DNA from: Bacteroidota bacterium | GTDB lineage: Bacteria; Bacteroidota; Bacteroidia; Flavobacteriales_D; Sanyastnellaceae | Length of the DNA stretch: 64,000 nt | Direction: 5' to 3' | Assembly: GCA_002746975.1 (NCBI GenBank) | Contig: NVXE01000003.1 | Coordinates: 85,321 to 149,320 of the forward strand | Shown here: piece by piece, positions 29,242-33,115 of the stretch | How positions within the stretch are numbered: the first letter of the stretch is position 1 | How the letters are laid out: every line of letters starts with the position of its first letter | Position numbers and translations under genes: made by a program | Notes under the pieces: model-generated | What the model was told of the DNA's origin: nothing | The model's input: only the letters and a program-made list of their open reading frames with translations | The model's database searches: none

Positions 29242-30648
29242 ATGAACATAATAATAACTTTTTCATTGAGAACATGCTGTTTTTTGGTAGCTCTTATGCA
29301 TTTAAGCGCTCTTAAAGCCCAAACAACTTATCAGGTCGGCTCTACTACTTTGACAGAGTCAACCCTAATATCTTCTATAGACTTGCCTTGGGAGATTCTT
29401 TGGGGGCCCGACGATTACGTTTGGGTTACGAGTAGAAAAGGAACGGTAACCCGAGTAGATCCAGAAACGGGAGCTTCGTCAGTGATTTTATCTAAGGCAG
29501 TTATGAATGGCGGGACTGGTGAACCGGGAATGTTAGGCATGGTTATGCATCCGGACTGGAATAATACCCCTAGGGTCTTTATTGTTTACTGTACAGGTTC
29601 GAGTTGGAGTGGTACAGAAAATTTAAGTTCCTTCGATTGGAATGGAACAGCGCTAATTAACGAACAAGTTCTATTAACGCTTCCGGCGGGAGGAATTCAT
29701 AACGGAAGTAGGTTGTTACTTTTACCCGATAACACCTTACTAATGACGACAGGTGATACAGGTGATGGAGGGTCTTCCTCTCAGAATATAAACTCACTTA
29801 ATGGAAAAATTCTTCGAATTAACTTAGACGGTTCAGTACCCTCGGACAACCCTATATCTGGAAGCTACGTTTATAGTTACGGGCACAGAAACCCTCAGGG
29901 ATTGTGTGCTGGACCTGGGGGTTTGGTATATAGCTCAGAGCATGGTCAAAGCACTAATGACGAACTCAATATTATTCAACCTAATCGCAATTTCGGATGG
30001 CCAAATGTCGAGGGATATTGTAATACGAGCAGTGAAATTTCATATTGTAACACGAATGATGTCGCGGAACCTATTTTTATCTGGACCCCGTGTGTTGCAG
30101 TAAATGGCATGGAGTATTACAACCACCCAGCAATTCCAGAATGGCAAAATTCTATTTTACTTTCTGTTTTAGGCGGGCTCGGAGCACAATACGAAAGGCT
30201 TAGCATTATGCATTTAAGCGCTAACGGACTAACCGTACTTTCTGAGGATCAATATTTCTCTAATTTCAACCAGCGTATTAGAGATGTATGCGTTAACCCT
30301 TATACTGGCGCGGTTTATATGGCTTTAAATGGTGGGAATTATCCTGGAAGTGGACCAAATGAGATTAAAGAATTCAGAAATTATTCATATACCCCTCCTG
30401 TCCCAATAGCGGGATGTACCTATTCCGGGTCTACGAATTATGACGCCGCCGCCACTTATGATGATGGATCCTGCATATTTTCGGGTTGTCTCGATTCTTT
30501 AGCCCTCAACTATATAGCTTGGGCAAACACGGACTCTGGTAATTGTGTATACTCCGCTATTTGTACAGAAGACATAAACGCTGATGGTGCCGTTACCGTA
30601 GGTGACCTTCTTCTCATACTTGGTGCCTTCGGTCAAGTTTGTCAATAA
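29242..30648 (+). CDS. Secreted PQQ sugar-dehydrogenase-like protein with cysteine repeats and dockerin-like C-terminus
   Basis: A 468-residue exported beta-propeller of the glucose/sorbosone dehydrogenase (Asd/YliI) family. A signal peptide ends near ALKAQ (residue 27). The family signatures are LGMVMHPDW, GHRNPQGLCAGPGGLVYSSE, HGQSTNDELNII and NFGWPNVEG; these enzymes use PQQ to oxidise aldoses. After the propeller (to about residue 385) come two copies of a Cys repeat (GCTYSGSTNYDAAATYDDGSC, 391 onward, then GCLDSLALNY...) and a final DINADGAVTVGDLLLILGAF loop resembling one calcium-binding dockerin repeat. There is no T9SS sorting domain. The gene lies immediately upstream of the lysyl-oxidase gene. 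Confidence 0.85.
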   Translation: MNIIITFSLRTCCFLVALMHLSALKAQTTYQVGSTTLTESTLISSIDLPWEILWGPDDYVWVTSRKGTVTRVDPETGASSVILSKAVMNGGTGEPGMLGMVMHPDWNNTPRVFIVYCTGSSWSGTENLSSFDWNGTALINEQVLLTLPAGGIHNGSRLLLLPDNTLLMTTGDTGDGGSSSQNINSLNGKILRINLDGSVPSDNPISGSYVYSYGHRNPQGLCAGPGGLVYSSEHGQSTNDELNIIQPNRNFGWPNVEGYCNTSSEISYCNTNDVAEPIFIWTPCVAVNGMEYYNHPAIPEWQNSILLSVLGGLGAQYERLSIMHLSANGLTVLSEDQYFSNFNQRIRDVCVNPYTGAVYMALNGGNYPGSGPNEIKEFRNYSYTPPVPIAGCTYSGSTNYDAAATYDDGSCIFSGCLDSLALNYIAWANTDSGNCVYSAICTEDINADGAVTVGDLLLILGAFGQVCQ

Positions 30649-30723: not shown

Positions 30724-33060
30724 ATGAAAAAGACAATTAACACCCTTTTCGCGACTCTACTTTTCGCGCTTTTTATCTCACCGCTCACTCCAATACACGC
30801 TCAATGTGTTCCTGGAGAGTCTGAGATTACAGTTGTTCTATTAACAGATAACTACCCAGCTGAAATTTCTTGGACTCTGTCAGACACCACTGGGGTGATT
30901 CTATCGGGAGGATCATATACAGGAAATAATACAACATACACTGCTTCTGTTTGTATTCTAGCATCTACAACACCCTCATGTCTTCAGTTTATTATTAATG
31001 ATAGTTACGGAGATGGTATTTGTTGTGCTTTTGGAAATGGGGCCTTTACTATTTTAGTGGATGGAGTTGAAGTCGCAACGGGAGGAAATTTTGCTTCACA
31101 AGACGTTGTAATGTTCGACTGTGCTCCAGGAACGACATGTAACGACGCTGTCGCTTTAACTAGCGCTGACTATGGAATAATATCTCAGACGTCGGATAAT
31201 TTTTGGTACACATTTACAGCGCCAGCTAACGGAATGTATGAATTCAGTTCATGTGGAGCAGGATGTAATACGACCTTGTTTATATATGACTACTGCAATA
31301 TGAATAATTTTGCAGACACAAATGAAGGGACTATTTACTACGACGATATGCAGGGTGGATGCGGTCAAGAAGCGGCTCTAACAGTTCTGCTTGTTGGAGG
31401 TCAACAGGTTTGGATTAGATGGGCATCCCTAGACATGAGTTGTGGTGCATTCAACTGGAATTTCAGTTTCGTTGGACCGCCTACGGGCTGTATGGACTCA
31501 ACAGCTTGTAATTATAACCCCGCGGCTGAGATAGATAATGGGTCTTGCATTTATCCTGGTGACCCACTTTGTACTGGGCCCGACCTTACTATTGTAACGG
31601 ACGCGATTACGAGCTCTCTTTATGCTACGACTCTGCAGGTAAACCAAACCGATTGTTATATCGTTGAGGGGTGTCTAAATGGGTTTGGTCAAAGGGAGAT
31701 AATCAGATTTACAACGCATATAAAAAATATTGGCGATCTTGACTATTATGTGGGGACGACATCAAATAACTCCACAACTCAACAGTTCGAATGGGGAAAT
31801 TGTCACAATCACTGGCACTATGCAGGATATGCAAAATATGACCTTTTCGATATGGCGGGGGCTCATATTCCAGTAGGGTTTAAGAATGGTTTCTGTGTAA
31901 TGGATCTAGAATGTAGTGGTGGGGGGACAGCGCAATACGGTTGTTCTAATATGGGAATTACAGCTGGTTGTGGAGACATTTACTCCAGTGGTCTTAGTTG
32001 TCAATGGATTGACGTTACAGACGTTCCCGATGGACAATATAGAATGGTGGTTAGGGTAAACTGGGATTACGATCCAGATGCTTTAGGTCGCTACGAAACA
32101 AACCTCGATAACAACTGGGGTGTTGTTTGTATCGAAATAAACAGAACTAACGGATATGCTGTTACGATTCTCACAGACTGTCCGGTTTATACCGACTGTA
32201 ATGGCGACCCTTACGGGACTGCTTTGTTCGACTGTGCTGGAAACTGTGGAGGAGCAACTATTATAGGCGACATAGATAATGATTTCGACCAAGACCTCGT
32301 TGACGCTCAGCTATACGTAGAGGGAGTTTTAGGAGGAGACATTCCAATAACGCCATGTAACGATATAAATGCAGACGGTACTATTAACGTTACGGACGCC
32401 GCTATTATGGCGGACTGTCAATACTGGAACGTAGCACATACTCATGTCGACAGTTCGGGATTTCATACTCATTGCGACTTTCCTGTAGTAGCAGTTCAGA
32501 ATCCATTCGATAATGTTGAGTTCACTATCGGCTCTGTAAATTGGGACCTTCAGTATTTCGACGTACACGTTCTTAACCCCGATAACCGTATTTACGCTTA
32601 TCAGCTTGAGTTTGATGGAATTCAAATATCTCAAACAGAGTCTCTATTAGATCCACTTCTATATTCAGGCGTTCCGACTCATGCTCCAGGTGGAATCACC
32701 GCCCTTTGTCTTAGTTATGACGGCACCACTATTCCGAAGAACACTGTTTACACCCCTTTGTTAAGGGTACACTGGATAGGGCCTGCTAATGGAATGGTTT
32801 GTATATCGCAAGTGGTTGACGTTGTTAACGATGCCCTGCAAACTACCATGACTAGTCTTTTCAACCCTTGCGTAGACCAAACCTCAACGGCATGCCCTGG
32901 GGATTTAGACGGAGACCTTATGGTTACCGTAAACGATATTTTAAGCGTTTTAAGTGAGTTTGGATGTCTATCATCATGTACAAATGACGTGAATGGAGAC
33001 GGCGCGGTTAATGTAGCTGACGTTTTATTAGTTTTATCTGCATTCGGAACGGCCTGCTAA
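30724..33060 (+). CDS. Secreted lysyl-oxidase-domain protein with dockerin- and cohesin-like modules
   Basis: A 778-residue exported multidomain protein. The signal peptide ends at HAQ (about residue 27); a beta domain of unknown type fills about 28-250; GCMDSTACNYNPAAEIDNGSC is a Cys repeat at 255-275. The lysyl oxidase domain spans about 285-475: copper-talon histidines 361/363/365 in WGNCHNHWHY, Lys387 in GFKNGFC and Tyr420 in CGDIYSSGLSCQWIDVTDV align with the copper ligands and the Lys/Tyr pair that form the LTQ cofactor in animal LOX. Next come DCNGDPYGTALFDCAGNCGG, dockerin-like EF loops (515-567), a cohesin-like beta domain (about 585-720) and a terminal dockerin-like pair. It would oxidise primary amines outside the cell; the substrate is unknown. 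Confidence 0.85.
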   Translation: MKKTINTLFATLLFALFISPLTPIHAQCVPGESEITVVLLTDNYPAEISWTLSDTTGVILSGGSYTGNNTTYTASVCILASTTPSCLQFIINDSYGDGICCAFGNGAFTILVDGVEVATGGNFASQDVVMFDCAPGTTCNDAVALTSADYGIISQTSDNFWYTFTAPANGMYEFSSCGAGCNTTLFIYDYCNMNNFADTNEGTIYYDDMQGGCGQEAALTVLLVGGQQVWIRWASLDMSCGAFNWNFSFVGPPTGCMDSTACNYNPAAEIDNGSCIYPGDPLCTGPDLTIVTDAITSSLYATTLQVNQTDCYIVEGCLNGFGQREIIRFTTHIKNIGDLDYYVGTTSNNSTTQQFEWGNCHNHWHYAGYAKYDLFDMAGAHIPVGFKNGFCVMDLECSGGGTAQYGCSNMGITAGCGDIYSSGLSCQWIDVTDVPDGQYRMVVRVNWDYDPDALGRYETNLDNNWGVVCIEINRTNGYAVTILTDCPVYTDCNGDPYGTALFDCAGNCGGATIIGDIDNDFDQDLVDAQLYVEGVLGGDIPITPCNDINADGTINVTDAAIMADCQYWNVAHTHVDSSGFHTHCDFPVVAVQNPFDNVEFTIGSVNWDLQYFDVHVLNPDNRIYAYQLEFDGIQISQTESLLDPLLYSGVPTHAPGGITALCLSYDGTTIPKNTVYTPLLRVHWIGPANGMVCISQVVDVVNDALQTTMTSLFNPCVDQTSTACPGDLDGDLMVTVNDILSVLSEFGCLSSCTNDVNGDGAVNVADVLLVLSAFGTAC

Positions 33061-33087: not shown

Positions 33088-33115
33088 AACTGCTTAACTA
33101 TCAAGCAGTTTTGAG
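33088..33115 (+). terminator. Intrinsic terminator after the lysyl-oxidase gene
   Basis: AACTGCTT (33088-33095), loop AACTATC, AAGCAGTT (33103-33110): a perfect 8-bp stem followed by TTGAGTTTAG. The U-tract is short. It separates the secreted-oxidoreductase pair from the TonB-dependent receptor gene that starts at 33168. Confidence 0.6.

Follow-up and report, generated by a model that had tools for sequence, protein, structure and literature searches.

A multidomain lysyl oxidase with alternative C-terminal tails in the Bacteroidota family Sanyastnellaceae

Introduction

What does a bacterium do with a large, probably exported protein whose central part resembles the catalytic domain of an animal lysyl oxidase (LOX), and is this part a genuine member of that enzyme family? 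These questions are raised by a 778-residue protein encoded in a 64,000-nucleotide stretch of DNA (hereafter the window: contig NVXE01000003.1 of assembly GCA_002746975.1, positions 85,321 to 149,320 of the forward strand) from a Bacteroidota bacterium of the family Sanyastnellaceae. A first-pass annotation of the window, made from its letters and open reading frames (ORFs), read this protein as a bacterial LOX and described such domains in bacteria as known but little studied.

This description agrees with the papers at hand (all are cited here from excerpts). LOX domains with conserved catalytic residues were reported in Bacteroidetes in 2015, in a survey where prokaryotic LOX architectures were simple in all but three cases (Grau-Bove, PMC4448552). 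Additionally, the archaeal LOX from Haloterrigena, refolded with copper, is active, oxidising lysine polymers and many amines in a manner sensitive to β-aminopropionitrile, and the same work calls the role of bacterial LOX “enigmatic” (PMC6452851).

The presence of a LOX domain in Bacteroidetes is, therefore, already known, and what appears to be new at the sequence level is the multidomain body in which the domain lies and the exchange of its C-terminal tails. A full-text search of the open-licence literature (which leaves subscription papers mostly uncovered, and in which the pairing of LOX with CotH-type genes was not a search subject) returned no paper on either.

Results

The catalytic domain

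The case that the window protein is a genuine member of the LOX family, with an intact set of copper and lysine tyrosylquinone (LTQ) residues, is strong at the level of sequence and predicted fold, where profile, alignment and structure agree. Both computational checks proposed by the first-pass annotation came out in its favour: the PF01186 (Lysyl_oxidase) profile matches residues 290-450 with 111.3 bits (cut-off 20.4; E 6.5e-32), and in VIA-align the predicted model overlays on human LOXL2 (5ze3) with a Z of 20.2 (residues 283-496, 195 aligned, root-mean-square deviation (rmsd) 3.2, 30% identity). With the model of the whole protein (AlphaFold from an 80-row alignment, mean pLDDT 78.3, pTM 0.47), Foldseek also places LOXL2 first by a wide margin (E 1.0e-13). 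The same structure is the top match in the PDB when searched by phmmer (E 8.4e-24), and a family profile built from 18 relatives (A2) finds LOXL2 at E 8.3e-35, with the second match at E 0.066.

The positions given earlier for the catalytic motifs were also correct, with CHNHWH running from residue 360 and supplying His361, His363 and His365, GFKNGFC containing Lys387 and CGDIYSSG containing Tyr420. Eight cysteines, the three histidines and both LTQ residues are in register with LOXL2 in the phmmer alignment; the domain holds ten cysteines, which may form the five disulfides of the family, the last two lying outside this alignment. Among 143 distinct domains of the same subfamily (class A), chosen by profile score alone, the five catalytic residues are identical in 143/143, as are nine of the ten cysteines, while Cys397 is found in 130 and missing in 13. 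All ten cysteines also occur in 80/80 rows of a further alignment (A3), a result that is partly built in, given that these rows were chosen by a regular expression requiring the histidines, the lysine, the tyrosine and three of the cysteines. In LOXL2 itself every one of the three histidines is needed, as H626Q, H628Q and H630Q each abolish LTQ (PMC9694262). The first-pass annotation would also have abandoned its reading had the five catalytic residues not clustered in a model, which is an unfair criterion, because in the solved LOXL2 precursor the lysine and the tyrosine lie 16.6 Å apart (PMC9694262).

The likeness to animal LOX and LOXL2 (PF01186, 5ZE3) thus covers the fold of the domain, the LTQ residue pair, the copper triad and the positions of cysteines. 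The window protein differs in having Gly358 where the animal motif has its first histidine (a loss already reported for bacterial LOX; Grau-Bove 2015, PMC4448552) and in having no SRCR match, its LOX domain sharing the chain with a PPC-like module, a dockerin module, a cohesin fold and a bacterial tail. Close kinship between animal LOX and class A is not claimed: in a tree thinned to 53 of its 131 class A rows, LOXL2 adjoins class A (SH-aLRT 89), but this is a meeting of long branches, with a single sequence to represent the animals.

The conserved body and its distribution

The LOX domain is embedded in a body of about 700 residues, conserved in sequence, in which it is preceded by a β-sandwich, a PPC-like domain and a cysteine repeat and followed by a dockerin-type module and a cohesin-fold domain (Table 1). 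This body can be aligned up to about residue 720 in 20 diverse relatives, with invariant cysteines throughout; four of them are extended at the N-terminus, and L006 and L054 start late. The survey of prokaryotic LOX, as excerpted, describes simple architectures in nearly all cases (PMC4448552), whereas here we find a conserved multidomain protein.

Table 1. Features of the LOX locus, in positions of the window
Feature	Position	Strand	Basis
LOX protein, class A, 778 aa, ATG start	30724..33060	+	ORF; PF01186 E 6.5e-32
Probable Sec signal peptide, residues ~1-27	30724..30804	+	MKK + hydrophobic stretch to HAQ
N-terminal β-sandwich, conserved Cys + Asp, residues 28-133, possibly carbohydrate-binding	30805..31122	+	VIA-align, model
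PPC-like / ColG collagen-binding-domain-like fold, residues 134-249	31123..31470	+	VIA-align 4hpk
Cys repeat GCMDSTACNYNPAAEIDNGSCIYPGDPLC, residues 255-283	31486..31572	+	Cys256/262/275/283
LOX catalytic domain, residues 283-496	31570..32211	+	VIA-align LOXL2 5ze3; PF01186
Copper histidines His361, His363, His365	31804..31818	+	143/143 domains; LOXL2 alignment
Lys387, LTQ lysine	31882..31884	+	143/143 domains
Tyr420, LTQ tyrosine	31981..31983	+	143/143 domains
Internal dockerin-type module, residues 508-568	32245..32427	+	profile A7 vs CelS dockerin
Cohesin-fold domain, residues 592-722	32497..32889	+	VIA-align; own-genome profile search
Twin dockerin-like tail, residues 725-778 + stop	32896..33060	+	NF041540 24.1 bits; own-genome tail matches
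PQQ-dehydrogenase-like (GSDH) protein, own dockerin-like half tail at 30556-30645	29242..30648	+	PF07995 E 1.6e-67
Weak terminator-like hairpin past LOX stop	33088..33110	+	8 pairs, 3 G-C

Around the LOX domain, the first-pass annotation saw cysteine repeats, loops like those of dockerins and a cohesin-like domain, and all of these hold, the last as a fold. The four cysteines of the repeat (Cys256/262/275/283) are kept in 80/80 rows of A3. A profile of the internal module (A7) matches the C. thermocellum CelS dockerin over positions 4-54 of 61 (1daq/2mte; E 4.8e-6 and 4.9e-6), and PF00404 (Dockerin type I) gives 22.1 bits on the window protein, below its cut-off of 22.9, and passes in a relative (L033) with 29.2 bits. 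In the predicted model, residues 592-722 resemble solved cohesins (VIA-align Z 11.0, rmsd 3.0, 125 aligned, 7% identity), a similarity of fold from which binding does not follow. We use “cohesin” as a statement of fold only, because PF00963 (Cohesin) has zero matches in the source genome (G000) at E up to 1; with the threshold at E 0.1, it also has none in 20 relatives. The likeness to cellulosomal modules consists of the matching dockerin profiles and this cohesin fold (Z ~11), and the difference is that, besides the missing Pfam Cohesin, the only source-genome proteins matched by the cohesin-fold profile are the two LOX proteins.

The PPC-like domain is assigned by VIA-align to 4hpk (Z 10.3, rmsd 2.4, 97 aligned); both this fold and the cohesin fold rest on VIA-align, with Foldseek giving the unrelated Cry1Aa and SIDT1 similar E-values. 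The N-terminal β-sandwich, whose profile has 22 matches in the source genome (E up to 0.01), was modelled alone with a pLDDT of 90.4 and had no decisive Foldseek match (MmpS5 first, at E 1.5e-4). Its interpretation as a carbohydrate-binding module is weak: VIA-align to vCBM60 gives a Z of 8.5 over residues 33-133, near background, and Foldseek points to no clear family. Among the relatives, L033 and L034 carry PKD domains, and a direct scan of L033 also found a MopE-type putative metal-binding motif (PF11617) immediately ahead of its dockerin tail.

PF01186 has a match in 90 of 101 Sanyastnellaceae genomes (18 of 21 genera), in 97 of 395 genomes of the class (58 with strong matches, E at most 1e-20, and 39 with weaker ones only) and in 4 of 296 genomes of a phylum draw; these draws differ in make-up, and their shares can be compared only in the sense that LOX is patchy outside the family. 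The named relatives, found by patterns around Lys387 and Cys426 (80 kept of at least 546), are metagenome-assembled genomes with mostly Flavobacteriales or Crocinitomicaceae titles, the others being titled Bacteroidetes, Saprospiraceae (two) and Euryarchaeota (two). The two contigs titled “Euryarchaeota archaeon isolate SP189” (L134 and L171) carry a bacterial LOX and probably belong to a misnamed bin; L134 also has many of the neighbour genes of the window. No LOX was confirmed in the viral contigs or found in the phages searched, and the plasmids yielded four distant records.

C-terminal tails

The window protein ends in a twin dockerin-like tail, whose profile matches the dockerin 2y3n at E 7.7e-9. 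NF041540 (GC-type dockerin) aligns to it over its full length (1-67 of 67), yet with 24.1 bits it stays below the cut-off of 29; no paper was found under the name of these GC-type dockerin domain-anchored proteins in the open-licence literature searched. With hits up to E 0.1 admitted, the window tail matches neither TIGR04183 nor PF18962, the models of the type A C-terminal domain (CTD) of type IX secretion system (T9SS) cargo. The LOX paralogue in the same genome, however, ends in precisely this CTD (26.8 bits with TIGR04183 and 33.8 with PF18962), as do most of the 20 diverse relatives (17 and 16 matches, respectively, at E up to 0.1). The source genome has a T9SS (SprA, 1820.8 bits) and 73 type A CTD matches, 70 of them above cut-off. 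Compared with T9SS type A CTD cargo, the window copy therefore shares its body with orthologues and with a CTD-bearing paralogue, and has a dockerin-like tail instead.

Among the tails of 133 full-length class A ORFs (some of these genes having been fetched twice), 101 were labelled CTD, 24 dockerin and 8 other (VKYTG...NDRD); here “CTD” is a default label, and all 6 CTD tails tested exceed the TIGR04183 cut-off. The twin dockerin-like tail ends 16/16 ORFs of the window clade. In a tree of the bodies without their tails (61 kept after thinning), the dockerin label needs two changes, and a single dockerin clade is rejected (log-likelihood 86.5 lower, p-AU 1.5e-5; the grouping was set after the tree had been seen). 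Tails were exchanged at least twice on class A bodies. In the window clade the change ran from CTD to dockerin, because this clade is nested in a well-supported CTD set; for the second dockerin clade either direction fits, depending on where the tree is rooted. A third tail type, with the pattern D.N.SG.VKYTG..NDRD..L..IGG..PT, occurs in one family (f11; L057, L058, L060-L064 and L071), and scans of one such protein, L061, gave no Pfam match there and nothing meaningful from NCBIfam.

The dockerin-like tail is shared by many proteins of the source genome, where its profile has 48 matches, 29 of the 30 examined ending 0-3 residues before the stop; these C-terminal tails comprise 16 strong twin forms (52 bits or more) and 13 weaker ones, mostly half-tails. 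Across 149 genomes drawn from the class and searched at E at most 1e-6, the tail was plentiful only in the two that belong to the family (26 and 38 matches); three further genomes had one or two matches and the remaining 144 had none. The profile (A4) was built from tails of this group, and distant tails may escape it. Its C-terminal position, its concentration in one family and its exchange with a T9SS signal in an orthologous protein suggest, on sequence grounds, that the tail is an alternative sorting or anchoring tag.

Gene neighbourhood

The LOX gene starts 75 bp past a same-strand gene for a protein resembling pyrroloquinoline quinone (PQQ) dehydrogenases (GSDH), on which the NCBIfam PQQ-dehydrogenase subfamily model stays below its cut-off, and the two genes form a possible bicistron. 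GSDH lies directly upstream of 8 of the 16 window-clade LOX ORFs (14 with room for a neighbour) and of 0 of the 72 other named ones. The region has 10 hairpins like the one past the LOX stop, where shuffled sequence gives a mean of 6.4 (standard deviation 2.7). The hypothesis of a defence system was dropped, as neither LOX nor GSDH has a PADLOC match.

The ORFs of the paralogue type (with tails other than dockerin) have different partners. A CotH-type gene lies directly downstream on the same strand, often overlapping, in 38 of 65 of them (62 with room), including the LOX paralogue of the source genome, and an S46-type peptidase gene lies directly upstream in 44 of 65 (58 with room); both were counted with profiles seeded from one member each. 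The four CotH-type proteins scanned (one from the source genome) contain lamin-tail, CHB_HEX_C, CotH and CHU_C type IX domains, and the one S46-type peptidase scanned matches PF10459.

Lysine content

Lysine is scarce in the mature window protein, at 4 in 753 residues; Lys387 is one of the four that follow residue 3. Other exported proteins of the LOX loci (the window, L032 and L133-L211, with classes assigned by regular expressions) are similarly poor, with median lysine contents of 0.50% in 44 CTD-like, 0.91% in 11 dockerin-tailed and 0.79% in 69 LOX proteins, against 2.70% in 183 other proteins with a signal peptide and 3.74% in 351 without one.

We considered whether this depletion protects proteins from LOX, an idea which same-genus and within-family contrasts did not support. 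TIGR04183-tailed proteins have a median of 2.18% lysine in genomes with class A LOX (n=35) and of 2.88% in others (n=52; pooled p 0.028). The three same-genus contrasts give p values of 0.12, 0.52 and 0.86, the last running the opposite way, and among four further within-family contrasts one reaches p 0.048 (G049/G002) and another runs the opposite way (G389/G312). These 87 proteins come from 16 genomes, hand-picked among the matches listed; 18 genomes were searched, two of which (G000 and G411) contributed none.

A second LOX subfamily

The Bacteroidia also contain a second LOX subfamily, class B (L036-L051, plus matches in the class that cover only about profile positions 128-197). Its ORFs are 619-1627 residues long in 15 of 18 cases, many with ends that look T9SS-like by eye; the lysine and the tyrosine are kept, HxHxH is kept in most, and most of the class A cysteines are missing. 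Three of these proteins, from one genus, lack an intact histidine triad while keeping an LTQ-type lysine and tyrosine (two neighbouring ORFs of L039, 689-2794 and 2802-4709 on the minus strand, and L046:2444-4525), one of them retaining the last histidine; judging by their residues, they are candidate natural copper-less LOX pseudoenzymes. Their lysine content is 5.1-6.2%, whereas 13 other class B proteins range from 1.05 to 2.95%; L048 and L049, whose triads are intact, have 10.9 and 8.6%.

Discussion

Taken together, these observations lead us to favour, with moderate confidence, a LOX protein that is Sec-exported, probably attached to the cell surface, and that works there as a copper amine oxidase modifying or cross-linking surface or matrix proteins. 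Its substrate, export route and role, as we infer them, would be linked as follows: Cu(II) held by His361, His363 and His365 would drive the formation of LTQ from Tyr420 and Lys387, the mature enzyme would oxidise primary amines, chiefly peptidyl lysines, to aldehydes (releasing ammonia and H2O2), and the tail would fix the protein at the cell surface, where surface or matrix proteins would be modified or cross-linked. The Haloterrigena enzyme, with the same kind of domain and catalytic residues, is active (PMC6452851, in the part available). The CotH pairing adds a pointer from the gene order. CotH proteins act on proteins elsewhere, and the pairing leans towards the modification of surface proteins.

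Several observations weigh against this proposal. The confidence of the model is low to middling around the active site (block pLDDT means of 55-82 over residues 341-420), the signal peptide was judged by eye, and the evidence for export and anchoring by the tail consists of its position and its exchange. The CotH neighbour is found at 0 of 16 window-clade ORFs, so that its link to the window copy runs through paralogy, and at none of 20 class A loci from other families. Moreover, a lysine cross-linker would find an unusual set of substrates in the lysine-poor exported proteins of the LOX loci, and the S46 peptidase upstream of the paralogue-type ORFs fits the use of peptides equally well.

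This peptidase, the scarcity of lysines in the exported proteins of the LOX loci and the relaxed specificity of the archaeal LOX for small amines (PMC6452851, as excerpted) together make up the case for a nutrient enzyme, which would deaminate extracellular amines, peptides or amine-rich polymers for their ammonia, with no structural cross-linking. We regard such a function as unlikely, though deserving of serious attention: the S46 link was not seen in the 20 loci of other families and may reflect an inherited gene order, the gene that follows at once on the same strand encodes a CotH-type protein, and the TonB receptor gene that follows LOX in the window has no relative in the other loci, barring one marginal match. 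H2O2 follows from LOX chemistry too, and could itself be the useful product, directed against competitors or released on algal surfaces; GSDH, a second oxidoreductase, is co-oriented with LOX and has a similar tail. Yet the four neighbours scanned with Pfam hold no pointer to such a use, nor do the negative PADLOC results for LOX and GSDH, and we give a peroxide generator little credence. Catalytic loss does occur in the LOX fold, as the three divergent class B proteins (L039 twice and L046) indicate, but a catalytically dead scaffold, kept for binding only, is very hard to reconcile with five catalytic residues identical in 143/143 class A domains, and is the least credible of these alternatives.

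The internal dockerin and the cohesin-fold domain may serve to pack or associate class A LOX molecules. The two modules adjoin each other also in families without a tail match in the sampled genomes (e.g. G009) and, because the cohesin-fold profile matches only LOX proteins in the source genome and the pair also occurs in these families, the internal dockerin is a simpler partner for the cohesin fold than the tailed proteins are. A more elaborate scheme, which we consider improbable, would make the LOX protein a surface-assembly hub peculiar to this marine family, with a cohesin-fold domain that would bind either dockerin-type tails or internal dockerins belonging to further LOX molecules, and a LOX domain that would then fix the assembly covalently; the tail would be a sorting or anchoring tag replacing the T9SS domain.

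Returning to the surface-attached amine oxidase that we favour, the near-universal presence of LOX in one marine family, within a fixed multidomain protein, means that its role would be open to genetics if a relative were cultured. Orthologues that differ in their tails while sharing one body are a natural experiment on the sorting and anchoring of T9SS surface proteins. If cross-linking proves true, covalent matrices made by LOX would extend from animals to bacteria.

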